Shown here: positions 199-35,521 of the stretch, in pieces
How the letters are laid out: each line of letters starts with the position of its first letter
Numbering within the stretch: the first letter of the stretch is position 1
DNA from: a virus
Reading direction: 5' to 3' (one strand)
Virus record (IMG/VR): IMGVR_UViG_3300043595_000059
Coordinates: 1-35,521 of that record
Length of the DNA stretch: 35,521 nucleotides
Program-made: the position numbers and the translations under genes
Notes under the pieces: model-generated
What the model was told of the DNA's origin: nothing
The model's input: only the letters and a program-made list of their open reading frames with translations
The model's database searches: none

Positions 199-564
199 CA
201 GGTCCTTCGCCTGCACCGGGGTCATGGCGGCGACCGTGCGGACCACAGCGACGGTCGCCCGCCACTGCGGCCCGAACGTCAGCTCCAACTCGGCGTCGGT
301 GACATCGACCCCGCCGGCGATCCAGGCACGAACGTCGGCTTCGGTGGTGTCGGAGTCATCGTTCCAGGAGGTGCCGTGCCCTCGACGCTGGTCGACTTGT
401 TCGACGAGGTAGGCGTCACCCGGAACGGCTTGGCAAAGCCGGACGGCACCCTCGTAGCAGACCGCGGCGTCGGGCTGGTCGTTGCCGTAAGCGCCCTTGC
501 GCCAGCCTCGCCGGTCGAGCACCGCGATCAGCTGATCGCCGGGAATGTGGATGATCGTGGGCAT
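1..564 (-). CDS. DUF6197-like protein with long (G/R/W)(D/V/A)AA repeat, 5' part (cut by window edge)
   Basis: ATG at 564, preceded by GGAGG nine bases upstream. The frame stays open for exactly 188 codons to position 1 with no stop. Residues 1-120 form an ordinary globular domain with the pattern GWRKGAYG, then AVCYEGAVRL, then a SWND motif. This resembles DUF6197, a small actinobacterial and phage domain of unknown function (my recognition, not searched). From about residue 122 the chain is pure four-residue repeat (Gly/Arg/Trp, Asp/Val/Ala, Ala, Ala). The frame continues at the other end of the window in the same phase (35521 to 35183), so this is one gene split by linearisation, about 300 residues as drawn. 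It follows the sigma-factor gene by 31 bases and is the last early gene before the small membrane protein. Function unknown; the repeat is predicted to be helical and Ala-rich. Confidence 0.75.
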   Translation of the reverse strand, partial: MPTIIHIPGDQLIAVLDRRGWRKGAYGNDQPDAAVCYEGAVRLCQAVPGDAYLVEQVDQRRGHGTSWNDDSDTTEADVRAWIAGGVDVTDAELELTFGPQWRATVAVVRTVAAMTPVQAKDLAAAGVAAWDAAWVAAGVAAGDAAGDAAGDAARDAAGDAARVAAGDAARDAARDAAGDAAWDAAWAA

Positions 565-595: not shown

Positions 596-1399
596 TCAGA
601 TGTGGAGCCGGTCGGGCCACGGTCGTGCGGCACGGATCGCGGCGGCGTAGCGGTCCTGGCGCCGTTCGACGCGGCCCACCGGCCGCCGGGTGGGCCGGGC
701 CACGTACTGGGCGTTGATCCCGTCGCGGAGCATCACGATCGCCTCGGTGTAGAGCTGGCAGACCCGCGACGGGGTCACACCCATCCGGGCGGCCAGAGCG
801 GTCTGGGAACGGCCGCCGGCGAACATGCCGATGATCACCGCCCGGTGCTTCGGGGCAAGCTCGGCGACGGCGTCGTTCAGGGTGGAGTGGAGCTCGGCCT
901 GTGCGAGCTCGTCGGCCGGGCCGAGGGTGGTCTCGTCGGCGACGACGTCGGCCAGGGTCAGGTCCTCGTCGCTGTCGGCCGTCTTGTACTCGAGGGCGAG
1001 AACGACCGAACGGGACATGCGTTCCTGGAGCGTGGCGAGCGCCTCGGCCGTCATGTCCAGGGCGGCGGCGGTCTCCGAACGTGTTGGGGCCCGGCCGAGG
1101 TCGGTGGCGAGCCGCTGCTGGGCCGATTCGAGCCGGCGGGCGCCACGGCGTACCGACCTGGGCGCCCAGTCGGCGGCCCGGACGTTGTCGAGGATCGCTC
1201 CCCGGATCCGTCGGGAGGCGTACCGCTCGAACGGCACTCCGAGGGCCGGGTTGAACCGGTGGGCGGCGTCGACCAGGCCGAGGCGGCCGGCGGCGGCGAG
1301 CTCGCCACGGTCGACGTGGCTGGGGAACCCGCCGGCCACCTGGTGCACCACCGAGGTGACGAGCGGCAGGTGCGCCTCGATGAGGTGATGGTTGGTCAC
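596..1399 (-). CDS. Sigma-70 family factor, FliA/WhiG type
   Basis: 267 residues from GTG 1399, which overlaps the stop of the SWIM gene as GTGA, with GGAGG eight bases upstream. A longer frame reaches 1615, but its extra 72 residues are a shadow of the SWIM gene. Region 2 spans about residues 5-80, with the GLVDAAHRFNP core-binding segment and the ASRRIRGAILDNVRAADW melting segment. A region 3 helix bundle spans about 88-150. Region 4 spans about 172-228, with LAPKHRAVIIGMF and the helix-turn-helix SQTALAARMGVTPSRVCQL. All three parts are present, so it should bind core polymerase and promoters. The family includes FliA, WhiG and stress sigmas. Its neighbours are a WhiB-like factor and a SWIM protein, suggesting redirection of host polymerase to phage middle or late promoters (inference). 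Confidence 0.85.
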   Translation of the reverse strand: MTNHHLIEAHLPLVTSVVHQVAGGFPSHVDRGELAAAGRLGLVDAAHRFNPALGVPFERYASRRIRGAILDNVRAADWAPRSVRRGARRLESAQQRLATDLGRAPTRSETAAALDMTAEALATLQERMSRSVVLALEYKTADSDEDLTLADVVADETTLGPADELAQAELHSTLNDAVAELAPKHRAVIIGMFAGGRSQTALAARMGVTPSRVCQLYTEAIVMLRDGINAQYVARPTRRPVGRVERRQDRYAAAIRAARPWPDRLHI

Positions 1400-1653
1400 C
1401 AGTCGTCCTCCGGTGGTGGGCGGGCGGTGGGTGCGAGGTCGACGGCGACGACCAGACGGACGGCGAGCAGGTGGGCGCACTGGTCGGTGCGGGCAGGGCA
1501 CGTGCACGACCAGACGTGCTGGGCGTAGGCGATCTGGTAGACGGTCCCGTCGCCCCGGCAGGCGGCGACCACCCGCAGCGGGTCGACCCGGGACAGGACG
1601 ACCCGGCCCTCGCACAGGTACCGGCGGGCCTTCGCAGCGGCGTTCTCCCTCAC
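1396..1653 (-). CDS. SWIM zinc-finger protein
   Basis: 85 residues from GTG 1653, in the same 4-base GTGA overlap with the WhiB stop that this operon uses throughout; an ATG at 1692 in the same frame is the alternative. The SWIM motif is complete: C50-x-C52-x6-C59-x-H61 in WSCTCPARTDQCAH, preceded by the usual strand VYQIAYAQHVWSC. SWIM domains bind one zinc and mediate DNA or protein contacts. Stand-alone SWIM proteins are common in actinobacteria, but few have a known role. The acidic Pro-rich C-terminus ends at the start of the sigma gene. A regulatory or DNA-transaction role is inferred from position only. Confidence 0.75.
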   Translation of the reverse strand: MRENAAAKARRYLCEGRVVLSRVDPLRVVAACRGDGTVYQIAYAQHVWSCTCPARTDQCAHLLAVRLVVAVDLAPTARPPPEDDW

Positions 1654-2048
1654 GTCACGACCGCCGGGGCGAGCCGCATCGGTGACCCCCACGAGCGGCG
1701 CACCATCACCGCCCCCTCGCGTTCGAGCAGCTTGACCTGACGACGGACCTGGACGTCGGACATGCCGAGCCGGTCCACCACCTGACGCACCGTCGTCGCG
1801 CCGTGCTCGATCTCGACCAGCACGAACTCGCGGTCAGTTTCCTCGACGCCGAGCCGCCCGGAGTGCCGTTCCCCCGGTGTCCGGCCACCCCACACCCCCA
1901 TCGGTTCGCCACGGGCGACGGCGTCGTCGAGGCACACCTGGCGGACCGTGCAGGCACGGCAGATCAGCCGGGCGCGGGGGAGGAGATGCGGGTCGTAGAA
2001 GATCGCGGCGTCCTGGCCACGGCACGCACCCTCCGCTTTCCAGCTCAT
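1650..2048 (-). CDS. WhiB-family iron-sulfur regulator fused to a winged helix
   Basis: 132 residues, with ATG 2048 overlapping the resolvase stop as ATGA. The WhiB signature is complete: Cys9, Cys30-x2-Cys33-x5-Cys39 for a [4Fe-4S] cluster, followed by the GVWGG turn at 51-55. Residues about 70-118 then form a second domain that looks like a winged helix-turn-helix (REFVLVEIEHGATTVRQVV, then DRLGMSDVQVRRQVKLLERE). Ordinary WhiB proteins end soon after GVWGG in a short basic tail and act by binding sigma region 4; here an added DNA-binding domain is likely. The sigma factor two genes downstream is a natural partner (inference). Phage WhiB proteins can repress host whiB genes and contribute to superinfection exclusion (known for mycobacteriophage TM4 WhiBTM4). 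Confidence 0.88.
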   Translation of the reverse strand: MSWKAEGACRGQDAAIFYDPHLLPRARLICRACTVRQVCLDDAVARGEPMGVWGGRTPGERHSGRLGVEETDREFVLVEIEHGATTVRQVVDRLGMSDVQVRRQVKLLEREGAVMVRRSWGSPMRLAPAVVT

Positions 2049-2500
2049 CGGAGCGCCCGGTACAGGGCGGCCTTCCCGGCGACGTCCCAGGCGGAGCGGG
2101 CGTGGCGGGCGTGGCCGGCGCCGAGCTTCTCCCGGGCGCCGACGAGCCTCGACGGATAGGAGCCGAGCGGCCCGGCACCGTTGTCACCCGGTGGGACGAC
2201 GACGGCGTCGGGGTACCAGCCCATGACGGCGCCGAGGACGACGGCGGTGTCGAGGAGCCCCTGGAGGCTGATGGTGCCCATGTGCGGGGTCGGGGTCACC
2301 AGCCCCTCGACGGCGACGGTGAACGACTCCTCCGGCCATTTGCACGTCACCGCGTCGAAGATCGCCGCTTGCACCTCGGCGAGATACGGCGCCATGTCCC
2401 CGTCGCGGGTCACCACCGCGGCCCACACGGCGGCGTCGACCTGGCGGGCCACGATCCCGCAGTAACGCCCCCCGGGATCGACCCCGACCACGCCGGTCAC
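2045..2500 (-). CDS. RuvC-like Holliday-junction resolvase
   Basis: 151 residues from GTG 2500, which overlaps the previous stop as GTGA. RNase H-like fold markers are in order: GVDPGGRYCGI with Asp8, VAVEGL with Glu65, and a C-terminal HARSAWDVAGKAA with His133 and Asp139. These fit the four metal ligands of RuvC. The length is close to RuvC (about 170). The enzyme would cut branched DNA arising from replication or ERF-mediated recombination, to give packageable duplex. It sits between the clamp-like gene and WhiB in the early operon. A RuvC-fold nuclease with another substrate is possible. Confidence 0.75.
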   Translation of the reverse strand: MTGVVGVDPGGRYCGIVARQVDAAVWAAVVTRDGDMAPYLAEVQAAIFDAVTCKWPEESFTVAVEGLVTPTPHMGTISLQGLLDTAVVLGAVMGWYPDAVVVPPGDNGAGPLGSYPSRLVGAREKLGAGHARHARSAWDVAGKAALYRALR

Positions 2501-3162
2501 TGGACCCGGCAGGTCATGAGGAGCCCGAGGATCGACGGCTCGCAGTCGATCTCGAACTGGGCGCTCCCGTCCGGGCCGGCCAGATGGAAGACGACCGGAT
2601 GGACCAGGTCGCGGAGCTTGCCGAACCGGCCGAGCATCGCCGGCGAGAACGCCACCCTCTGGGTCGGGGTGAGGTTCCGGCCGGCGAACAGCTGCTGCCA
2701 GTCGACGTACGGGCCGCCGTACAGGTCGAGGTCGAGCTGCTCCCGGTCCGACCCGACCACCATCACCTGCCGGTCGAGGTCCGAGGACAAGGTCGGCATC
2801 GACGGACGCTCACCGGAACGGACCTCGACGGTCACCTGCGTCGGGGGTATCCCGTTCTTGTCCGCTGCGACCGCGTCGCGCAGCACCCACGACATCAGGT
2901 TCCGCATCCGGCCGTCGTGGTCGATCACGACATGGGTCTCGCCGGCCACCGCGGCGTCGGCGACGTCGAGGTCGTCCTCGTCGACCTTCACGGTCGAGGT
3001 GAGCAGCATCACCCCGTCGGCGGCGACCAGCCGGACCGCCCGGTCGAACACCTCGACGAGCAGGGTCCGGTACAGCTGAGGGCGATGCTCGTCGGTGCCG
3101 GAAGCGAGCGACGTGTTCAGCCACGCCGTGGCGAACCCGCGGGCGGGCAACATCATCTTCAC
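2497..3162 (-). CDS. Sliding-clamp-like protein (DnaN fold), short
   Basis: 221 residues from ATG 3162. The N-terminal half reads like a clamp domain: LPARGFATAWL, then LYRTLLVEVFDRAVRLVAADG followed by MLLTSTV. The C-terminus reads like the last clamp domain: FSPAMLGRFGKLRDL, a PVVFHLAGPDG strand and a final GLLMTCRV in the place of the bacterial terminal MPMRL-type strand. Bacterial beta clamps have about 370-400 residues in three domains, so this would hold only two. It could trimerise as PCNA does, or act as a decoy that binds host polymerase or clamp-loader (inference). The fold call rests on pattern similarity; a structure prediction would decide. Confidence 0.5.
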   Translation of the reverse strand: MKMMLPARGFATAWLNTSLASGTDEHRPQLYRTLLVEVFDRAVRLVAADGVMLLTSTVKVDEDDLDVADAAVAGETHVVIDHDGRMRNLMSWVLRDAVAADKNGIPPTQVTVEVRSGERPSMPTLSSDLDRQVMVVGSDREQLDLDLYGGPYVDWQQLFAGRNLTPTQRVAFSPAMLGRFGKLRDLVHPVVFHLAGPDGSAQFEIDCEPSILGLLMTCRVQ

Positions 3163-3569
3163 GGCTGGACCTCCGGTTGTTGCTCGGTGAGGAACGTCTG
3201 CATGGCAGCGAGGTGCCGGCCGGCCGAGTAGCCGGCGGTGTACTCCCGGCCGGATTTCGGTGGGATCTTCGTCTCGACCCCGCCGGGCCTGGAGGCGTCA
3301 CCGATCGTCTGGGTGAACCCGCGGTACCCGTCGAGCCACCCCTCGGCCAGCTCGATCGACGGCTTCGCCTTCAGGTCCTCGAGGTAGCCGTCGAGCTCGT
3401 CGAGCCGGTGCAGGATCGCCGAGGCGACCCGGTGCAGGGTCAGGTCGGCCAGCAGCGTGTCCCGGCCCGTCGTGATCCCGACGGCGACCTCGGCGCACAG
3501 CACGTCGTTCACCCACACCCGGCCGGACTCCTCGACCAGCACGGCCACATCGTCACGGCGGCGGCTCAC
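3159..3569 (-). CDS. Early protein of unknown function
   Basis: 136 residues from GTG 3569, which overlaps the previous stop as GTGA; the frame extends to 3707, but the added part is Arg/Pro-rich shadow. Not recognised. It has an N-terminal beta-type stretch (DDVAVLVEESGRVWVNDVL), a helical middle (LHRVASAILHRLDELDGYLE) and a C-terminus with an HLAAMQTFLTEQQ helix. No cysteine cluster or signal peptide. Its place between a DUF3846-like gene and the clamp-like gene suggests a replication-associated accessory role. Confidence 0.65.
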   Translation of the reverse strand: MSRRRDDVAVLVEESGRVWVNDVLCAEVAVGITTGRDTLLADLTLHRVASAILHRLDELDGYLEDLKAKPSIELAEGWLDGYRGFTQTIGDASRPGGVETKIPPKSGREYTAGYSAGRHLAAMQTFLTEQQPEVQP

Positions 3570-3895
3570 GACGCCATCTCCTGAGCGAACGACACCAAGG
3601 TGCGCACATGGTCGGTCAGGTCGGCGCTGACGCCGTGCAAGTCGGGTGGGCCGACGATCACGACATGGCCACGCAGCACACCAACGTCCCGGTGACCCAG
3701 AGCACACACCAACGTCGCCAACCTGTTGACCGGTAGACCGTGCACCATGCCCTCCTCGTTGACGTACATCGGCGACCCGTCGCTCAGCCCAACCGCCTCG
3801 ATGGAGCCGCCGACGATCGCCTGGTAGTCGGCGAGGTCACCGATGTCCCGGTACGTGACCTCACCCTCGGCCGTGATGATCACCCCGGCGGTCAT
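3566..3895 (-). CDS. DUF3846-like protein
   Basis: 109 residues from ATG 3895 (ATGA overlap with the gene before). The chain shows the family pattern: IVGGSIEAVGL, then MYVNEEGMVHGLPVNRLAT, then a HVVIVGPPD strand near the end. DUF3846 proteins are small, common in phages and mobile elements, and of unknown function. The Asn/Glu-rich loop followed by GLPxNR is the most conserved part and is intact. Confidence 0.7.
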   Translation of the reverse strand: MTAGVIITAEGEVTYRDIGDLADYQAIVGGSIEAVGLSDGSPMYVNEEGMVHGLPVNRLATLVCALGHRDVGVLRGHVVIVGPPDLHGVSADLTDHVRTLVSFAQEMAS

Positions 3896-4044
3896 GACGC
3901 CTCCCGGTCGGGGTCGGGGGTGAGCGGCCGCTCGTTGTCCGAGCCACACACCCGGCAGTTCGTCAGCAGCCGCGGCGGGTCCTCACGGCGCAACAGGACC
4001 TCCTGCGCCTCCCACGGATGCGAACACCAATGCTCAGCGGTCAT
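3892..4044 (-). CDS. 50-residue putative zinc-ribbon protein
   Basis: ATG 4044 overlaps the previous stop as ATGA, with AAGGAG seven bases upstream, and the stop overlaps the DUF3846 start. The chain has a CSHPW near the start and CRVCG in the middle. This C/H...CxxC pattern fits a single small zinc site. No family recognised. Gene spacing and the Shine-Dalgarno site make it a real gene. Confidence 0.6.
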   Translation of the reverse strand: MTAEHWCSHPWEAQEVLLRREDPPRLLTNCRVCGSDNERPLTPDPDREAS

Positions 4045-4352
4045 CGGGGCTCCTTCGGGCGGTGCAGAGCGAGGAGCCGATCCACCGTCTCGGTGTGGTC
4101 CATCGGCACCCACCGCTTCGACACCGGCGCCGGTGGCCGCGACGAGGCGTCACGGAGCGCCTCCACCAGCAGCGCCCGCTCGGTCATGGCCCGGCCGAGA
4201 CGCCGGTCGTCGACGAGGCGGCGCACACCACGGGCCCGCCGGTACGGCAACCGCCGCGCGAGCCGCAGCAGCGCCCGGTCGACGCCGGTGTCGGCGACGT
4301 CGGTGACGAACAGCCGGTCGAGGACGCTCACCCGACGGCGACGGCGGCTCAT
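4041..4352 (-). CDS. Small very basic protein, unknown
   Basis: 103 residues from ATG 4352 in an ATGA overlap with the ERF stop. It starts MSRRRRRVS and is rich in Arg and Leu throughout, suggesting nucleic-acid binding, but no domain is recognised. Its place directly after ERF puts it in the recombination block. Confidence 0.55.
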   Translation of the reverse strand: MSRRRRRVSVLDRLFVTDVADTGVDRALLRLARRLPYRRARGVRRLVDDRRLGRAMTERALLVEALRDASSRPPAPVSKRWVPMDHTETVDRLLALHRPKEPR

Positions 4353-4999
4353 CCGACCGGCTCCGATTCCTGCTGCTCCGCGGTGAGCTCGATCCGGGAC
4401 TGCCACTCATCAGCCAGATCCGCGGTGAGCGACCCTCGCTTGATCCCCTCTTCCTGAACCCACTCGATGATGAGCCCGGGATCGGCCAGCGCCTTCGTCG
4501 CCGCACGGAGCTCGTCGAAGCGGGCCGACAGCGGCGTAGGTGCCGCGACGTACGAGGCCGGCGCACGCTCGTAGGTCTCAGCGTCGGGGTCCGGTTCGTT
4601 CGTCGGCAGCGTGAGCGCCTGGATCAACGCCGTCCGGAACGCCACCGACATCGCCTTCGACACGGCCTTGTCACCGGAGTCAAAGGCCTCGGCCGGAACC
4701 ACGGCGTCGACGCTCGACCCGTCCGGCGCCATGAACCGGTACCGGACCCGCACCGACACATGCGCCATCGGCGTCCGGTTCTTCCCCACCTCCACCGTCC
4801 CGATATCGACCTCCTCCACCATCGGGACCACGACCACCCGGTGGGTGCGCAACGCCGGGCCGACCGCGTTCATCACCCCGTCGATCCCCCGGAACGAAAA
4901 CTGCTGCGCCTTGTTCATCCCGTCCTTCGGGACGGCCCGGACGTCGGCCATGACCGCGGCCAGGGCGGCGTAGATCCCCGGCGTGTCATCGTCGCTCAT
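4349..4999 (-). CDS. erf: ERF-family single-strand annealing protein
   Basis: 216 residues, ATG 4999, ATGA overlap with the Gam-like gene. The core is typical of ERF: IYAALAAVMADVRAVPKDG, the FSFRGIDGVMNAVGPALRTH segment and the diagnostic GDKAVSKAMSVAFRTALIQAL at about 109-129. The C-terminal 70 residues are a variable acidic tail, as in other ERF proteins. ERF anneals complementary single strands and supports phage genome circularisation and recombination-dependent replication. Its partners here would be the Gam-like protein upstream and the RuvC-like resolvase downstream; no phage exonuclease is evident nearby. Confidence 0.88.
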   Translation of the reverse strand: MSDDDTPGIYAALAAVMADVRAVPKDGMNKAQQFSFRGIDGVMNAVGPALRTHRVVVVPMVEEVDIGTVEVGKNRTPMAHVSVRVRYRFMAPDGSSVDAVVPAEAFDSGDKAVSKAMSVAFRTALIQALTLPTNEPDPDAETYERAPASYVAAPTPLSARFDELRAATKALADPGLIIEWVQEEGIKRGSLTADLADEWQSRIELTAEQQESEPVG

Positions 5000-15346: not shown

Positions 15347-15723
15347 CAGCCGGTGCCGGTACCGGTGCCGGTACCGGTGCCGGTACCGGTGCGCTGGGTC
15401 GGTGGCCCGAACAGGGCGGGAACGGCGGCGGTGTCCTGGCCGTCGATCGCCTTCTTCAGGTCGAACACCGCGGAGGCGGACGAGCCGAGACCGAGGGCGA
15501 ACAGGATGATCGCCGGGGTGGACAGCTCACCGAAGGTGACGCCGACGACGCCGATGGTGGAGAACGGTTCGGCGTCGCGGGCGAGGAGCGCGACGGCGAC
15601 CGCTGCGCCCCACACCGACAGCTGGGTGACCGCTGCGTTCCAGTCCCGGTTGGTCAGGTACTTGAGGAAGTCGACGACCTTCCAGATGATCGCGACGAGC
15701 GCGGCGAGTCCTACGGTTTCCAT
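15346..15723 (-). CDS. Holin with Gly-Thr repeat tail
   Basis: 125 residues from ATG 15723 with AAGGAG nine bases upstream; an ATG at 15753 would add ten residues but lacks a better signal. Three hydrophobic segments (about 4-20, 41-58, 74-94) and charged loops fit a small holin. The tail is a run of Gly-Thr pairs coded by a 12-bp DNA repeat. The stop overlaps the endolysin start, the usual holin-lysin order. Confidence 0.72.
   Translation of the reverse strand: METVGLAALVAIIWKVVDFLKYLTNRDWNAAVTQLSVWGAAVAVALLARDAEPFSTIGVVGVTFGELSTPAIILFALGLGSSASAVFDLKKAIDGQDTAAVPALFGPPTQRTGTGTGTGTGTGTG
15350..15393. repeat. 12-bp tandem repeat in holin tail
   Basis: CCGGTGCCGGTA repeated nearly four times. 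On the minus strand it codes for alternating Gly and Thr. As at the window ends, the unit is a multiple of three, so copy-number change keeps the frame. The KpnI-type palindrome GGTACC recurs in each unit. Confidence 0.85.
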
Positions 15724-16343: not shown

Positions 16344-18883
16344 GTCTCGTCCCGTCGGTTGAGGGTGAGGTCGAGCGTGCCGGCCTCGGTGATGGTGAGG
16401 GCAACGACCCGGTAGGTGGCCTCGACGTGCAGGGCGCCGGCGTGGAGGCGGACGGGGACGGTGTCACCGCACTCGAGGACCCCGACCGGGTCGGGCTGGC
16501 CGGGCTGGGGGGAGGTGAGCGTGACCGACAGGAGGTCGGGATCGATCGTGATGGCGAGCTGTTCGATGGCGACGTTGTCGAGCGAGTCGATCGGGGTCCC
16601 GGTCGGGGCCGAGTAGACGGTCTCGAGGGTGAGCCCACCGGAGTAGGTGGAGGTGTCGGAGGCGGAGGTCTCCTCGCGGGCGGACCCGTCGCCGGTGCCG
16701 AGCACGATGACCGTCGAGGCGGCGTTCTCGCCGTCCGCGGTCCAGCCGAGGTCGGCGGTGTTGCGGCCGAGCTCGATGGTGAACTCGGGGCGGTGCACCC
16801 CCCTGGCCGGGTGGTGGCTGCGGATGGTTCGGGTGGTGGCGGTGTAGGCGACCGACCAATCGAACCCGTCGTCGAGGGTGGTGAACTCGGCGAGGCAGTC
16901 GGCGCCGACCGGGTGCTCGTGGTGCAGCCACGTCCGGTCCCGGAGCACTCCGGTCGCGGGCATGTCGGTGGCGAGGTTCAGCGGGGACTTGTCGTATGCC
17001 TCGTCCTGGAGGTGGGCGATGAGCGACGCCGCGATGTCGGCCTGGTCCTCGCCGTAGTGCCGCTCGCCCTCGTCGAGCGAGAGCGCCACCCGGTCCCAGT
17101 AGATGACCCCGTCCGGGCAGCCGAGGGTGACCGACACGAACTCGGGGTCACCGGTGACCGGGGAGCGCAGCGTCGCCTCGAGCGGGAGCCACACGTCGCG
17201 GGGCGTGTTCTCGTCGATCGCCGCCGACACCGACTCGATCGGCGCGGGGAGCACCTCGACCGGGCCGCCACCCTCCGGCTGGGTCTCGACGGTGTTCACG
17301 GTGGAGTACCGGTCGAGCTGCAGCCCGATCCCTGACGGGGGCGGGCCGCGCCAGTCGGCCGACGGGATGTAGTAGCGGCCGACGAGGGACCACTGGTCGC
17401 CCTCGACGTCGGCGGGGTCGACCGTCCAGATCAGGAACTGGGTGGCCGACACCCCGTACTTCGGTGTCCCGCTGTCGGGCTGTTCGAGGCGCAGCGCGTG
17501 GGTGCCGGTGAGGACCCGGTCGGTCGGCGTCGTCGCTGACCAGTAGGCGCCGTCGCGGGTGGCGAGCGGTTCGAACGGGTCGAGGGCCCCGACGCGCCAG
17601 TCGGTGGTGCCGTTCTCGAAGTCCCCGTTGGTCACCATGTTCGTCCGGCTGGCCTTGCCGACGGTGCGCCGACCGAGGTACCAGGCCGCCCCGACACAGG
17701 ACACGGCGAGCGTGTTCTTGTCCGCCGCCGGGCGGACCATCGGACCCCAGGCAAGGAGCTGGTCGCCTCGCCACACCTGCACCTCCCGGAACCGTTCGGC
17801 CAGGACGAGCGGCGCCTTCGGGTCCGTCAACGGGAGCACGAAGCTGAACGTCTCCGGTTCGTTCAGCGTGTAGGAGATGGCGCCGACGGTGGCGTTGTCG
17901 AGCTCCCCGTACGGGGTCCCCCAGATGTCGACCACGACCAGGCGCCGGCGGACCCCGACCGGCCGCACCACCACATCCAACGTCGCCGTCGCGGTGAAGG
18001 CGACGGCGGCGACAGCCGGGACGACCTCCACCGTCCCCGGCGCCGTCACCGACAAGGTCGCCGTGGCGGTGAACGAGACCGCGGCGAGCGTCGGGTCCGG
18101 TTCGGCCGTGACCGACAGGGAGGCGGTGGCGGTGAACGCCACCGCGGCGACGATGGGGTCCGGTTCGGCGGTGACCGACAGGGTCGCGGTAGCGGTGAAC
18201 GAGACCGCGCCTTGCTCCGGACCGACGTCGAACAGGGCGTCGTAGTGTGCCGCTACCCGCTCGGGAGACATCTCCGACAGGTACATGGCGGCACCGGCGA
18301 TGGCGCCGTTCCAGAAAGTGCCGCCGTCGTACTTGCAACCGAGCCGCCAGCCGCTGTTCGAGTCGGTCGGTGGATAGGAAGTGGATCCGACCGCTACGCC
18401 GTCGACGTAGAGACGTGCGGTGTCATCAGCGCCGTAGGTGAAGGCCAGGTGGTGGAAGTCACCGGCAGTCCACGTGCCACCTTGGATGATCGTCCAGTTG
18501 TAGAAGCCGTAGGTGCCAGCGGTGATCTGATTGCCCGCACCTTGACCGGCGACATGCAAACCGATCGTCGCCTGGATCCGGTCGGGATCGTAGATCTCGC
18601 TGAACACCTCGGCCTGTTCAACGATGACGTCTGCCCGTGCGACCACTTCGATGGTGAACGGGCCGCCGGACGTGCTGATTGGCGGGATCAGGACGTAGTC
18701 GTTGGAGCCGTCGAAGTCGGGGGCGGTGAGCCCGGCGACCGTGGTGGCGGCCAGCGCCGGGGACCCGTTGTAGGTGCCGTGGTTGGCATTGCCGGAGCTG
18801 TCGACGGCGGTGGTGCCGGAGGTCTCGTCAAGGAGCCAGAACCCGACGGGGGAGTCGGCGAGGACCTCGTCGGCGTAGCCCAT
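16340..18883 (-). CDS. Tail hub/minor tail protein with N-terminal LamG domain
   Basis: 847 residues from ATG 18883. Residues 1-225 are a concanavalin/LamG sugar-binding domain (VGFWLLDETSGTTAVDSSGN near the start, then FDGSNDYVLIP and HHLAFTYGADDTARLYVDGV). Residues about 225-315 are four tandem beta repeats with the core VSFTATATLSVTAEPDP. From about 320 the chain matches the phage Gp37-like/tail hub family (LVVVDIWGTPYGELDNATVG, then SYTLNEPETFSFVLPLTDP), including a jelly-roll carbohydrate module (NMVTNGDFENGTTDW). It probably forms the tail tip and recognises cell-wall sugars. Position between tail fibre and lysis genes agrees. Confidence 0.75.
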   Translation of the reverse strand: MGYADEVLADSPVGFWLLDETSGTTAVDSSGNANHGTYNGSPALAATTVAGLTAPDFDGSNDYVLIPPISTSGGPFTIEVVARADVIVEQAEVFSEIYDPDRIQATIGLHVAGQGAGNQITAGTYGFYNWTIIQGGTWTAGDFHHLAFTYGADDTARLYVDGVAVGSTSYPPTDSNSGWRLGCKYDGGTFWNGAIAGAAMYLSEMSPERVAAHYDALFDVGPEQGAVSFTATATLSVTAEPDPIVAAVAFTATASLSVTAEPDPTLAAVSFTATATLSVTAPGTVEVVPAVAAVAFTATATLDVVVRPVGVRRRLVVVDIWGTPYGELDNATVGAISYTLNEPETFSFVLPLTDPKAPLVLAERFREVQVWRGDQLLAWGPMVRPAADKNTLAVSCVGAAWYLGRRTVGKASRTNMVTNGDFENGTTDWRVGALDPFEPLATRDGAYWSATTPTDRVLTGTHALRLEQPDSGTPKYGVSATQFLIWTVDPADVEGDQWSLVGRYYIPSADWRGPPPSGIGLQLDRYSTVNTVETQPEGGGPVEVLPAPIESVSAAIDENTPRDVWLPLEATLRSPVTGDPEFVSVTLGCPDGVIYWDRVALSLDEGERHYGEDQADIAASLIAHLQDEAYDKSPLNLATDMPATGVLRDRTWLHHEHPVGADCLAEFTTLDDGFDWSVAYTATTRTIRSHHPARGVHRPEFTIELGRNTADLGWTADGENAASTVIVLGTGDGSAREETSASDTSTYSGGLTLETVYSAPTGTPIDSLDNVAIEQLAITIDPDLLSVTLTSPQPGQPDPVGVLECGDTVPVRLHAGALHVEATYRVVALTITEAGTLDLTLNRRDET

Positions 18884-30711: not shown

Positions 30712-30991
30712 CGAACACCATCCCGACGAGGTCATCCAGCGTGGCCCGAAGTTCCCTGGCCACCGCAGCGGCGGCCATCCCAGCCCCGTTGTCGAGGGTG
30801 CGGGCGAGGGTGAAGGCGATCTCGGCCAGGCCCTCACCCATCGGGTGCGATGTCACCAGCGCCTCGACGTCAGCACGGACCTTCGTCTCGACCGGTCCGG
30901 GGTCAGAGGAGCCGGAGCTGGTCGTTCGTTGCCCGGTCGCTCTTGCGGCAGTTGCAGAGGTGGTGGGCGCACTGGACGTTCTTCGGCTCAT
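30599..30991 (-). CDS. terS: Terminase small subunit
   Basis: 130 residues from ATG 30991, lying inside the 3' end of the HNH gene (89-base overlap); AAGGGCGG precedes it. The first 30 residues are Ser/Thr-rich and may not be folded. The helical core GEGLAEIAFTLARTLDNGAG then AAAVARELRATLDDLVGMVF matches actinophage TerS proteins and is followed by a very acidic tail. It recognises packaging sites and activates TerL. Confidence 0.7.
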   Translation of the reverse strand: MSRRTSSAPTTSATAARATGQRTTSSGSSDPGPVETKVRADVEALVTSHPMGEGLAEIAFTLARTLDNGAGMAAAAVARELRATLDDLVGMVFDDDDDLEVELSTSVRDGQEPGAGDAGPEDGGGGPPAR

Positions 30992-31913
30992 GGGTGCCGC
31001 CCTTCGCTAGCGGGATGATGTGGTCGAGCACCGGCGCCTTCGGATGCGGCACCTGCTTCGTTCTAGCCACAGGCTTCCGGCAGAGCTGGCATCGCCACCT
31101 GTCCCGCTCGAAGATCTGCTGGCGGCGGACGTCGGCGACATATCCGTCCCGCTTCCGGGCTCGGCGCCGGGCACGACCGTCGGCCGTGCCGCACTGCTTC
31201 GAGCAGTAACTGTTGGTCAGTTGGTCGATGATGACGAACGCCTTGTTGCAGCGGCGACAGCTGCCAGCCACGTAGGTCCGGCCGGACGTGGCGACCACCA
31301 TCTCGAAGACTCGACGCCGGCGAGGGCCGGTGTAGATCTCGACCGCTGCGGAGCGAGGCGGCGGGGCTGGAGGGACTGGAGGGGGTCCCGGTGACCACCC
31401 GTTCCGGTGTCGAAGTCCGCAGCTGACCGAGCAGTGGCTGGCCTTGCCGGTGGTCGAGAAGTCCTTCGAGCAGAACTCGCAGACGGCGAGGCGGCGCTTG
31501 TAGGTCCGGCCGAACTTGGCTCTTCGCCAGCTCGAATAGTGGGAGCCGCACATACCTCGCCCCCTGACGACCCCGTCGCAGCCATCCACGGAGCACTGTG
31601 GACGCTGGTCGGGAGGGAGCGCCTTCAGCGCTTGGAGGCGCCTCGTCGATTCGCCCGGCCGCCTCGTTTCGGGCATCAGGGAGCACGGCGGGCAGTAGAC
31701 CCGCGGACGTCCTCGCCGAAGTTGACGGGTGAACACCTCGCCGCAACGTCGACAGGCGACCGTCGCCGTCGAGGCAGGCGATCCGTTCCGACGGCGCTCC
31801 TTGTCGCGCCAGTAGATCCGGGCAGCTGTGTGGCATTCGGTGCAGGGGGTCTCGCCGGCCTTCTGGTGACGCATGTAGGCGGCGTACGTGCCACACGGGA
31901 ACGGAGATGGCAT
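30903..31913 (-). CDS. Multi-zinc-finger HNH endonuclease
   Basis: 336 residues, ATG 31913 with GGGAGGGGGG upstream. The N-terminus has CGTYAAYMRHQKAGETPCTE then CHTAARIYWRDKERRR, a frequent actinophage zinc motif. Several CxxC pairs follow (CRRCGEVF, CEFCSKDF, CRRCNKAF, YCSKQCG). The C-terminal HNH is complete: FERDRWRCQLCRKPV, LDHIIPLAKGGTHEPKNVQ and CAHHLCNCRKSD. HNH genes beside terminase are needed for packaging in HK97-like phages. The repeated finger array before the HNH is unusual and may direct DNA binding. Confidence 0.8.
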   Translation of the reverse strand: MPSPFPCGTYAAYMRHQKAGETPCTECHTAARIYWRDKERRRNGSPASTATVACRRCGEVFTRQLRRGRPRVYCPPCSLMPETRRPGESTRRLQALKALPPDQRPQCSVDGCDGVVRGRGMCGSHYSSWRRAKFGRTYKRRLAVCEFCSKDFSTTGKASHCSVSCGLRHRNGWSPGPPPVPPAPPPRSAAVEIYTGPRRRRVFEMVVATSGRTYVAGSCRRCNKAFVIIDQLTNSYCSKQCGTADGRARRRARKRDGYVADVRRQQIFERDRWRCQLCRKPVARTKQVPHPKAPVLDHIIPLAKGGTHEPKNVQCAHHLCNCRKSDRATNDQLRLL

Positions 31914-32078: not shown

Positions 32079-32354
32079 TCACCAGGCCCATCCGGTGGTC
32101 GTGATGGTCCGGCGTGCCGTCAGCTCGGCTCGGGCGACGTGGACGGGGCGTACGCCTCGGATCCGGTTGCATTCGACGTGGGCGGCGGCGAGGTTGCGGA
32201 GGTCGTAGAGCGCTCCGCCGTGGGCGACGGGGGTGAGGTGGTCGGCGGTGTCCGCTCCGGGCTGGCCACAAAGGTGACAAACCCCGCCGTCTCGTCGGAT
32301 CACCCGGGCCTTGGTGCGGGTCCAGGGCCGGCCGGTGCGGCTAGCTGGGGCCAT
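32079..32354 (-). CDS. Small HNH endonuclease
   Basis: 91 residues from ATG 32354, which overlaps the preceding gene by 14 bases with AGG upstream. HNH motif: WTRTKARVIRRDGGVCHLCG, then DHLTPVAHGGALYDLRNLAA and HVECNRIRG. The frame is also open to ATG 32540 with a good GGGAGG site, which would add 62 Pro/Thr-rich residues; codon bias there favours the other frame, so the short form is preferred. Probably assists packaging or acts as a homing-type nuclease. Confidence 0.8.
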   Translation of the reverse strand: MAPASRTGRPWTRTKARVIRRDGGVCHLCGQPGADTADHLTPVAHGGALYDLRNLAAAHVECNRIRGVRPVHVARAELTARRTITTTGWAW

Positions 32355-32619
32355 CCTGCGTCTCGTGGCAGTCGCATTGGCAGGGGGCGAGGCAGTACTT
32401 GCAGGTGCGCCGGCAGCGGTCGTGGAGCCGGTGTTGGCAGGCGGTCGACGTGTAGGCGTGGCCCCGGGTGTCGGCGTCGGCGGTGTGGGCTTGGTGGAGG
32501 TCGTGGACGAGAGGTAGGCGGTGAGCTCGACAACCGGCATGCGCTCTACGCCTCCCTGAGCGCCGCAGCACCCGTTTCGGCCCGATGATGATGCCGGGAT
32601 CGGTGGTTCCGGGCTTCAC
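32341..32619 (-). CDS. Cys-rich small protein in overlapping frame
   Basis: The 3' part is clearly coding by third-position bias: TACQHRLHDRCRRTCKYCLA then PCQCDCHE, with seven Cys and four His, likely two zinc sites. It stops at 32341. The start is uncertain. GTG 32619 (in a GTGA context) gives 92 residues, and GTG 32571 gives 76. The N-terminal 40 residues are basic low complexity. It overlaps an open frame of the HNH gene. Unknown function. Confidence 0.5.
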   Translation of the reverse strand: MKPGTTDPGIIIGPKRVLRRSGRRRAHAGCRAHRLPLVHDLHQAHTADADTRGHAYTSTACQHRLHDRCRRTCKYCLAPCQCDCHETQDGPS

Positions 32620-34585: not shown

Positions 34586-34589
34586 TCAT
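34461..34589 (-). CDS. 42-residue coupled peptide, tail-like part of the initiator
   Basis: ATG 34589 overlaps the initiator stop (ATGA). Reads MTVTRRVTHRVSDGVTDGVQ then NGVETHSPGPGPYPFLNPWF. Such Val-Thr repeats followed by Pro/Gly are usual at the C-terminus of phage replication-initiator proteins, but here they are in the next frame. Either a separate peptide or the remnant of a longer initiator after a frame change. Confidence 0.45.
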   Translation of the reverse strand: MTVTRRVTHRVSDGVTDGVQNGVETHSPGPGPYPFLNPWFSA

Positions 34590-34593
34590 GTCG
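34522..34593. repeat. Six imperfect 12-bp iterons
   Basis: Units begin ACGCCG or ACGCG or ACGGT every 12 bases: ACGCCGTTCTGG, ACGCCGTCAGTC, ACGCCGTCACTG, ACGCGGTGCGTG, ACGCGTCTCGTA, ACGGTCATGTCG. A GTCAGT/ACTGAC inverted pair lies inside (34539-34559). On the minus strand they code for a Val-x-x-x type repeat, so origin and peptide functions may overlap. Confidence 0.6.
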
Positions 34594-34936
34594 AGGCGCC
34601 GTTGTGGGAGTTGGCCCGGTACCGGGCCTGCCGGGCAGCCGCCAGCTCGCGGTCGTGGAGGATCTTCTCCCTCGACGGCTGGTACTGCTCGTAGTCGTGG
34701 ATCAGGTACCCGTCCGGGTCGGGTTCCCACAGCACGACGTCGAGGAGCTCGGCGATCGCCTCGTCCGGGTCCTCGATCATCCCGACCGTCTTGGCCGCCC
34801 GGCGCGACACCTTCCCGCCGGTCGCGTTCTGGTTCGAGTAGCAGATTGACGCTACGAGCAGCCACCGGGCTGGCACGGAGACATCGACGAGCTTCCGGTG
34901 GGTGTACATGCCGTCGTCGAGGCGCACCCATGGCAT
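34586..34936 (-). CDS. Replication-initiator-like wHTH protein
   Basis: 116 residues, ATG 34936 (TGATG overlap). Reads MPWVRLDDGMYTHRKLVDVS, then ARWLLVASICYSNQNATGG, GMIEDPDEAIAELLDVVLW and YLIHDYEQYQPSREKIL. This fits the N-terminal domain of phage replisome organisers and DnaD-type proteins common in actinophages. It probably binds the nearby iterons or loads helicase. A DnaA box lies 150 bases downstream. Confidence 0.7.
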   Translation of the reverse strand: MPWVRLDDGMYTHRKLVDVSVPARWLLVASICYSNQNATGGKVSRRAAKTVGMIEDPDEAIAELLDVVLWEPDPDGYLIHDYEQYQPSREKILHDRELAAARQARYRANSHNGAST

Positions 34937-35217
34937 CAGGTGTGGTCCCCCTCTCGCAGCTGGTGCTCATGCCAGCCGAACGCGGCGGCACCGGAGGCGA
35001 CGGCGACGACGAGGAGCGCGAGCTGCGCCCAGGACACGGTCGGGGCGATGGTCTTGCCGACGATGAGCCCGATGGTGTTGGCGGCGACGGCGATCAGCAC
35101 GAACACCGGCCAGCGGCGTTCGGGGACACCGTCGACGGTGGGGGGTTCCATGAACGCCCGGAGCGCCTCGTCGGTGAGGACCTCATCCAAGCCGGGGTGG
35201 GTTTTCTTGTACGGCAT
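34936..35217 (-). CDS. Two-pass membrane protein
   Basis: 93 residues from ATG 35217 with GAAGGAG seven bases upstream. A polar start, then two membrane helices (about 36-56 and 62-82; VFVLIAVAANTIGLIVG and LALLVVAVASGAAAFGW). It follows the repeat protein with a 35-base overlap. Possible immunity or superinfection-exclusion function, inferred only from membrane location. Confidence 0.65.
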   Translation of the reverse strand: MPYKKTHPGLDEVLTDEALRAFMEPPTVDGVPERRWPVFVLIAVAANTIGLIVGKTIAPTVSWAQLALLVVAVASGAAAFGWHEHQLREGDHT

Positions 35218-35521
35218 CGAGATCTCCTTCGGGGGTGGGAGCGGTCGTCTGGGGGGCCCGGTCAAGGAGCCCGGGCAGATCGCCGAACACGGCCCGGAAC
35301 GGGCCGATGAGAAGGTCCCGGTGGGCGTAGGTGTACGGCCCGTCGGCGGTGGCGAGGTCCCACGTCGCTGCGGCCCTCGCTGCGGCCCTCGCTGCGGCCC
35401 CCGCTGCGTCCCTCGCTGCGTCCCCCGCTGCGTCCCCCGCTGCGTCCCCCGCTGCGTCCCCCGCTGCGTCCCCCGCTGCGTCCCTCGCTGCGTCCCCCGC
35501 TGCGGCCCTCGCTGCGTCCCT
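35183..35521 (-). CDS. 3' part of the repeat protein that starts at 564
   Basis: No start codon lies inside this piece. The frame enters from the window edge at 35521 already inside the repeat (13 units of four residues). It then leaves the repeat into a 60-residue C-terminal tail containing TWDLATADGPYTYAHRDLL and stops with TGA at 35183-35185. The phase matches the 5' part at 1-564. The end overlaps the start of the next gene (ATG 35217) by 35 bases, so translation is probably coupled. The tail is not recognised. A stand-alone gene is unlikely because no start is visible and both halves share the repeat. Confidence 0.75.
   Translation of the reverse strand, partial: RDAARAAAGDAARDAAGDAAGDAAGDAAGDAAGDAARDAAGAAARAAARAAATWDLATADGPYTYAHRDLLIGPFRAVFGDLPGLLDRAPQTTAPTPEGDLDAVQENPPRLG
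35366..35521. repeat. 12-bp in-frame tandem repeat, right end
   Basis: Thirteen exact-length units of the same 12-mer family as at 1-198, running up to the last base. If the ends are joined directly, three bases (one Ala codon) of the periodic pattern are missing but the frame is kept. The true copy number across the junction is therefore uncertain, as expected where an assembly collapses or trims a tandem repeat. Confidence 0.95.

Follow-up and report, generated by a model that had tools for sequence, protein, structure and literature searches.

Tweety gp54, described in 2007, is built around 12-bp units with invariant alanine codons and third positions, a pattern judged "consistent with selection for variation" (PMC2884959). 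Tweety mutants that escape the Phrann gp29/gp30 defence (and MichelleMyBell) carry more or fewer gp54 repeats, and in the model proposed for the protein, the repeat number sets the relative placement of its N- and C-terminal parts (PMC9262239, PMC8549241); the counter-defence role is taken here from these two reviews, written by the group that reported the gene (PMC2884959). Descriptions of gp54 have so far treated it as an isolated oddity among mycobacteriophage proteins. DUF6197, the family that the head of the protein studied here resembles, appears in the literature in one genome announcement only, and a literature search on the array peptide itself returned no match.

The window, by which we mean the whole 35,521-bp stretch analysed, is an IMG/VR virus record classed as linear. 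Tandem Repeats Finder places a 12-bp array at each of its ends, at positions 1-196 (16.3 copies, 91% matches, score 301) and 35366-35520 (12.9 copies, 93%, score 247). Read on the minus strand, the arrays contain 16 and 13 full units plus a partial unit of 9 nt at the contig edge. The left ORF opens with an ATG at 564, encodes a head of 121 residues and 16 units, and then runs off the contig; the right ORF, on the same strand and without a start, passes through 13 units and a tail of 60 residues to its end at 35183 (Table 1). All units except the first, a deviating LAAA (CTGGCCGCAGCG), follow the consensus [G/A/T]GGG[A/T/C]CGCAGCG, that is, (G/R/W)(D/V/A)AA, and in these 28 units, bases 2-4 and 6-12 are invariant, all variation being confined to base 1 (G/A/T) and base 5 (A/T/C), both of them replacement sites. 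An initial sequence-only reading was thus right in stating that the variable bases always change the amino acid and never create a stop; the lack of stops follows from the unit itself, because no stop codon has the form NGG or GNC. That reading placed the gene at 35183-35521 with about 29 repeats: the interval does hold 13 units and the tail but leaves out the head and 16 units at 1-564 on the minus strand, and the 29 units, while correctly counted as 16 and 13, are only a minimum copy number, because the assembler cannot count such units. Further tandem repeats lie elsewhere in the window, at 18042-18209 (63 bp x 2.7) and 15349-15392 (GCCGGT/CCGGTA-type).

Table 1. Features of the array gene and its surroundings in the 35,521-bp window
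Feature	Position	Strand	Basis
Shine-Dalgarno-like GGAGG, 9 nt ahead of the start codon	574..578	-	direct sequence reading
Start codon (562-564) and N-terminal head, DUF6197-like	202..564	-	Pfam PF19698; homologue heads
Array part one: 16 full 12-bp units (LAAA first) and 9-nt partial unit at contig edge	1..201	-	
Array part two: 13 full units	35366..35521	-	
C-terminal tail (TWDLATADGPYTYAHRDLLIGPFRAVFG...) and stop codon	35183..35365	-	match to conserved orthologue tail
Sigma-70 family factor, upstream	596..1408	-	Pfam Sigma70_r2/r3/r4
SWIM-like zinc protein, upstream	1396-1692		sequence only
WhiB-family regulator, upstream	1650..2048	-	Pfam Whib E 3e-16
Erf-like annealing protein, further upstream	4349-4999		
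Small protein with hydrophobic stretch, downstream, same strand	34936..35265	-	no family match
Phage replication initiation protein, downstream	34586..34936	-	phrog_2447 E 1.6e-25

The joining of the two halves into one gene is supported by orthologues, which have uninterrupted ORFs consisting of head, array and tail, with tails that match positions 35365-35186 of the window. The orthologue tails share the pattern (V/A)RDLIGxxGFTQxHYDxLTxPWxxVxG, and TWDLATADGPYTYAHRDLLIGPFRAVFG, from the window's right end, aligns with it. The most fitting interpretation of the contig is a circular or circularly permuted map, probably cut inside the repeat by the assembler: the homologues have the gene in one ORF, a second contig (IMGVR 3300044847_000031, containing our loci L054 and L071) likewise starts and ends within such an array, and among 76 loci, 17 have the array within 60 bp of a contig end, where about 1.1 would be expected. 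Metagenome assemblies often break within array genes, with the consequence that too few such genes are counted and the repeat numbers given for them cannot be relied on.

The sequence-only reading had called the head DUF6197-like, and this holds. Against Pfam PF19698 (DUF6197), the head in the window scores 22.8 bits (E 1.2e-4), just under the 24.6-bit cut-off, and its homologue SPI1_55 scores 42.5 bits, over the cut-off. We found eleven homologues, namely SPI1_55 of Skermania phage SPI1, a locus in a Mycobacterium metagenome-assembled genome (L224) and nine IMG/VR loci (L225-L233), one of which (L226) runs off its contig while two others (L229 and L230) are near-duplicates. Their heads are about 39-54% identical to that in the window, and they share a common plan of head, array and, where complete, tail in one ORF; the full plan is seen in L224, L225, L227-L233 and SPI1_55, the gene in the window being divided between the two contig ends. 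Variation at bases 1 and 5 occurs in all homologue arrays, and the pair of alanine codons is fixed in each of them and differs among them (GCCGCA, GCCGCT, GCTGCT, GCCGCC or GCTGCC, compared with GCAGCG in the window). The only phrog match of the protein in the window is phrog_8332, over the array. A search for a close relative of the phage itself found none, sequence searches against solved structures gave only chance or low-complexity alanine matches, and a plasmid search returned two weak head matches. At 3053-3925, the Mycobacterium locus also has an apparent duplicate of the array gene, broken in frame and lying immediately upstream of the intact copy.

The gene had been described as the last in the early operon. 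This impression is an artefact of the contig cut, and genes on the same strand follow it, including that for the replication initiation protein. In relatives, too, array genes occupy early regions: with antirepressor or excise genes on one side and WhiB genes on the other in the relatives of Tweety, between a repressor-like gene and ERF in Pseudomonas phage AF, and between a repressor and RecT in Erwinia phage phiEt88. Such positions beside repressor, antirepressor, WhiB and recombination genes, and not in tail modules, lend no support to the host-binding stalk that had been among the suggested roles. In phiEt88 (FQ482085.1; locus L265, 2290-3022), the array gene lacks an annotation as such, and the antisense P88_00440 and the truncated P88_00430 are annotated over the locus. 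In the window, an HNH endonuclease gene at 30903-31913 on the minus strand has an N-terminus that weakly matches WhiB-like profiles (phrog_22267, E 6e-7), and a second HNH gene lies at 32079-32540.

The nature of the array becomes clearer when many arrays are compared. Pattern scans detected the same array type in at least 120 IMG/VR contigs; the pattern held bases 2-4 fixed, allowed A or C at base 5 and left bases 1, 6, 9 and 12 free, so that low diversity at bases 6, 9 and 12 is not built into the search. Across 84 arrays, the mean within-array diversity was 0.569 at base 1 and 0.496 at base 5, against 0.044, 0.039 and 0.032 at bases 6, 9 and 12, and among 83 arrays (1212 units) from many phages, Fst at bases 1 and 5 was 0.22 and 0.10, against 0.89, 0.94 and 0.96 at the same three sites. 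In these 83 arrays, third codon positions are in other words fixed within arrays and different between them, and almost all of the arrays are polymorphic at bases 1 and 5. The arginine codons tell the same story: 42 arrays use AGG only, 25 use CGG only and a single one mixes the two, when about 61 mixed arrays would be expected. As the two codons are almost never mixed, units spread by copying rather than by recurrent mutation. Judged by such sequence comparisons, the arrays are subject to concerted turnover, with selection keeping replacement diversity at two residues per unit: replacement alleles persist through a turnover that eliminates synonymous variants, as would be expected under selection for heterogeneity of these residues. 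The earlier proposal of selection on the two variable residues is thus strongly supported by the diversity and Fst values.

The limitation of variation to two bases per unit could also suggest targeted mutagenesis of bases 1 and 5, by a diversity-generating retroelement or something similar. With one arginine codon per array, indicating that alleles are copied and not made anew, we find this scarcely credible. A diversity-generating retroelement was rejected on the grounds that the record contains no reverse transcriptase (RVT_1) and that the adenine at base 9 is invariant, which excludes adenine mutagenesis. Neither do we give much credence to the array being an artefact or element of the DNA level, for instance a slippage-prone repeat or a site for packaging, replication or decoy, with a frame open by chance and an unselected peptide. 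The unit is indeed partly self-complementary (GCNGC), the repeats break assemblies and several reading frames are open through the array; nevertheless, synonymous bases differ between arrays (Fst about 0.9) and only replacement bases are polymorphic, the reverse of what a DNA motif would show, and the head, frame and tail are conserved in the homologues, making this explanation very improbable. For comparison, a scan in which the variable codons were not conditioned on found a third-position diversity of about 0.5-0.8 in ordinary alanine-rich phage proteins (e.g., L145, L155, L158, L194 and L210) and almost none in W/R/E-S-AA and T-(D/Y/R/S)-AA arrays; in several structural alanine-rich phage proteins, third positions vary freely.

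The turnover itself can be seen between close relatives. The 420-bp heads of Tweety, DeadP, Taj and KristaRAM are identical and are followed by 49, 39, 31 and 17 units, respectively, and as these are complete isolate genomes, the concern about assembly is in part avoided. In unit alignments of the Tweety relatives, almost all differences are gains or losses of whole units and the array ends are conserved; Mutaforma13 and Firehouse51 differ by only two unit losses and two unit gains. The copy numbers of the isolates, with which the published Tweety escape mutants agree, bear out the suggestion that length changes in whole units. Loci L008, L044 and L061 share 76-79% identity over about 500-700 bp, and the synonymous unit differs in each. 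The near-identical pair L012/L013 (IMGVR 3300043621_000083 and 3300043607_000025) has 4,539 bases in common and differs at only one of them, through an A-to-C substitution at base 5 of one array unit that turns Asp to Ala; this is suggestive, though a single case that could reflect a choice made in assembly. In two other near-identical pairs, L023/L025 and L039/L044, all differences fall outside the array, implying that its hypermutability would not extend to every time scale, and such metagenome pairs are too few to give a rate of change. Arrays may also sit side by side or in families. One contig (L035) carries adjacent homologous genes on the minus strand at 2253-3182 and 3548-4480, with (W/R/G)(D/A)AA units on CGCCGCA in one and (W/R/G)(E/A)AA units on AGCGGCC in the other, and from their different units, each array was renewed separately. 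Another (L092) has four minus-strand ORFs between 3486 and 11115 for paralogous array proteins with another type of head ("AWADLPNATHIDWVLASLKSDPQKW") and some third-position variation.

As for the shape of the protein, the AlphaFold2 model of one homologue (L227) has a head modelled with confidence (pLDDT around 90 and above), a helical array of low confidence (37-74) and a C-terminal helix, and that of an Imm5-like relative (L067) has a pair of long helices that turn midway along the array, the ends being confident and the middle not. Structure searches with two models found no match below E = 2 in the PDB; among viral predictions, they found one full-length uncharacterised phage protein (E 9e-4) and otherwise weak, short matches to the head only. 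On a helix of 3.6 residues per turn, a unit of four residues advances 400 degrees, and the resulting drift of about 40 degrees per unit makes the variable residues wind round the helix. The idea of one variable face is hence not upheld, the relatives' models being, at low confidence, a helix or a helical hairpin.

Alanine-rich helices are standard rigid linkers. The main rival to the reading we prefer is a spacer defined by composition only: a soluble helical or flexible rod or linker, in which the mix of W, R and G with D and A serves solubility and charge, and the order and number of units are unspecific. Unit order is almost without autocorrelation at lags 1-14, and no helical periodicity of W, R, G or D was detected along the arrays over these lags, a weak result in that metagenome assembly favours arrays without long exact repeats and so biases the assembled order, weakening any conclusion on it. 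L062 and L125, a pair of loci with 92% flank identity, are no closer in unit order than shuffled arrays would be (alignment z = 0.3), and across arrays the R fraction correlates with the D fraction (rho 0.36, p 0.002), a relation that charge balance predicts. Composition is, however, not tightly held, the W and D fractions varying among arrays at least as much as by chance (SD 0.16 and 0.18), and in Tweety, the repeat number alters which defence is escaped (PMC8549241). We thus consider a spacer of this unspecific kind possible but rather unlikely.

With guarded confidence, we favour the reading that the protein in the window is an accessory protein of the early region of an actinobacterial phage, a DUF6197-headed representative of the working kind of Tweety gp54. 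A conserved DUF6197-like head and an equally conserved C-terminal tail are joined by the alanine-rich (W/R/G)(D/V/A)AA array, of which, as the comparisons above indicate, whole 12-bp units are gained, lost and rearranged much faster than the flanks change; this turnover homogenises the synonymous sites of each array while selection at the protein level keeps two residues per unit polymorphic. The array is predicted to be mostly alpha-helical, and its length and residue mix may set a geometry or surface for the joint action of head and tail, which together could act on a variable defence encoded by the bacterium or a prophage. Slippage would then allow quick retuning of the phage population, as reported for the Tweety escape mutants. 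The counter-defence role of the window protein is inferred by analogy. Among the roles suggested earlier, spacer, decoy and stalk, a spacer fits best, in line with the published repeat-number model for gp54 (PMC9262239).

The same array is found behind other heads. Among 98 array proteins, 10 match DUF7666, 9 Imm5_like and 3 Imm5, and several have unnamed heads. The Imm5 matches, together with the long helical hairpin modelled for L067, might suggest an immunity-type protein that neutralises a bacterial toxin, with the array as an expanded helical core; given that the protein in the window matches neither the Imm5 nor the Imm5_like profile, and that the Imm5 families were named by prediction and not by test, this is improbable. 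Returning to the gp54-like reading, one may speculate that self-diversifying phage effectors are widespread, with a rapidly rearranging (W/R/G)(D/A)AA module placed behind DUF6197, phrog_3416, DUF7666, Imm5-like and other heads, and with the residue pattern and length of the array deciding which host or prophage defence is recognised; we regard this generalisation as doubtful. On the practical side, the codon signature of gp54 recurs in more than 80 arrays, including those of Pseudomonas, Burkholderia, Erwinia, Skermania and Mycobacterium phages. Genes with a "tunable array" are easily found at the DNA level, by fixed third positions and polymorphic replacement positions, and the signature supplies many candidate counter-defence genes.

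The systems known to us resemble the gene in the window to different degrees. One is VR2 of bbp36 in Bordetella phage BMP-1, a repeat that stays in frame, varies in copy number and lies in a non-essential gene, and which its authors likened to Tweety gp54 (PMC2884959); its unit is 24 bp. The Imm5/Imm5_like and DUF7666 array proteins have 12-bp (W/R/G)(D/A)AA arrays with array-specific fixed alanine codons, and so do those of proteobacterial phages (for example Pseudomonas phage AF_046, PPpW-3 ORF54 and Burkholderia Bcep176 gp36), but their heads and tails are unrelated, or of unproven relation, to those in the window. An array protein of Curvibacter phage P26059A (KY981271.1; locus L271, 2495-3082) with an AF_046-type head is annotated as a "tail fiber protein", perhaps from its alanine repeats, and its array has some linked third-position variation. 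Homologous in sequence is ORF55 of Skermania phage SPI1 (KR011061.1; phrog_762), in which both the head (39% identity, tblastn) and the tail are homologous, with an array between them, in an early region where it adjoins helicase and primase genes; it differs in that its array is partly of (W/A)(D/A)AA and DRAA type.

In Tweety gp54 (with Che8 gp57 and PMC gp51; phrog_3416), as in our protein, an array of alanine-alanine-x-x tetrapeptides is flanked by unique N- and C-terminal parts, the 12-bp units are invariant at third codon positions and vary only at replacement sites, and the gene has its place near WhiB genes in the early region of actinobacteriophages. The copy number of gp54 differs between close relatives. 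The variable residues are mainly G/W/Q and S/Y in gp54 but W/R/G and D/V/A in the window, and both head and tail differ: gp54 has a phrog_3416 head, a family that also includes the L008/L012-type heads, and against this profile, the DUF6197-like head of the window reached an hhalign probability of 22.5%, short of head homology. Both do carry Cys-x-x-(Gly/Glu)-Ala and a Trp-Asn-Asp motif. Given the weak match of the head profiles, the function of gp54 is carried over by architecture and not by proven descent of the head. The kind of array is already known from one described protein family, of which the gene in the window is most likely a new head variant; what is new is that arrays with several different heads, from phages infecting at least two bacterial phyla, have the DNA signature of Tweety gp54 in common.
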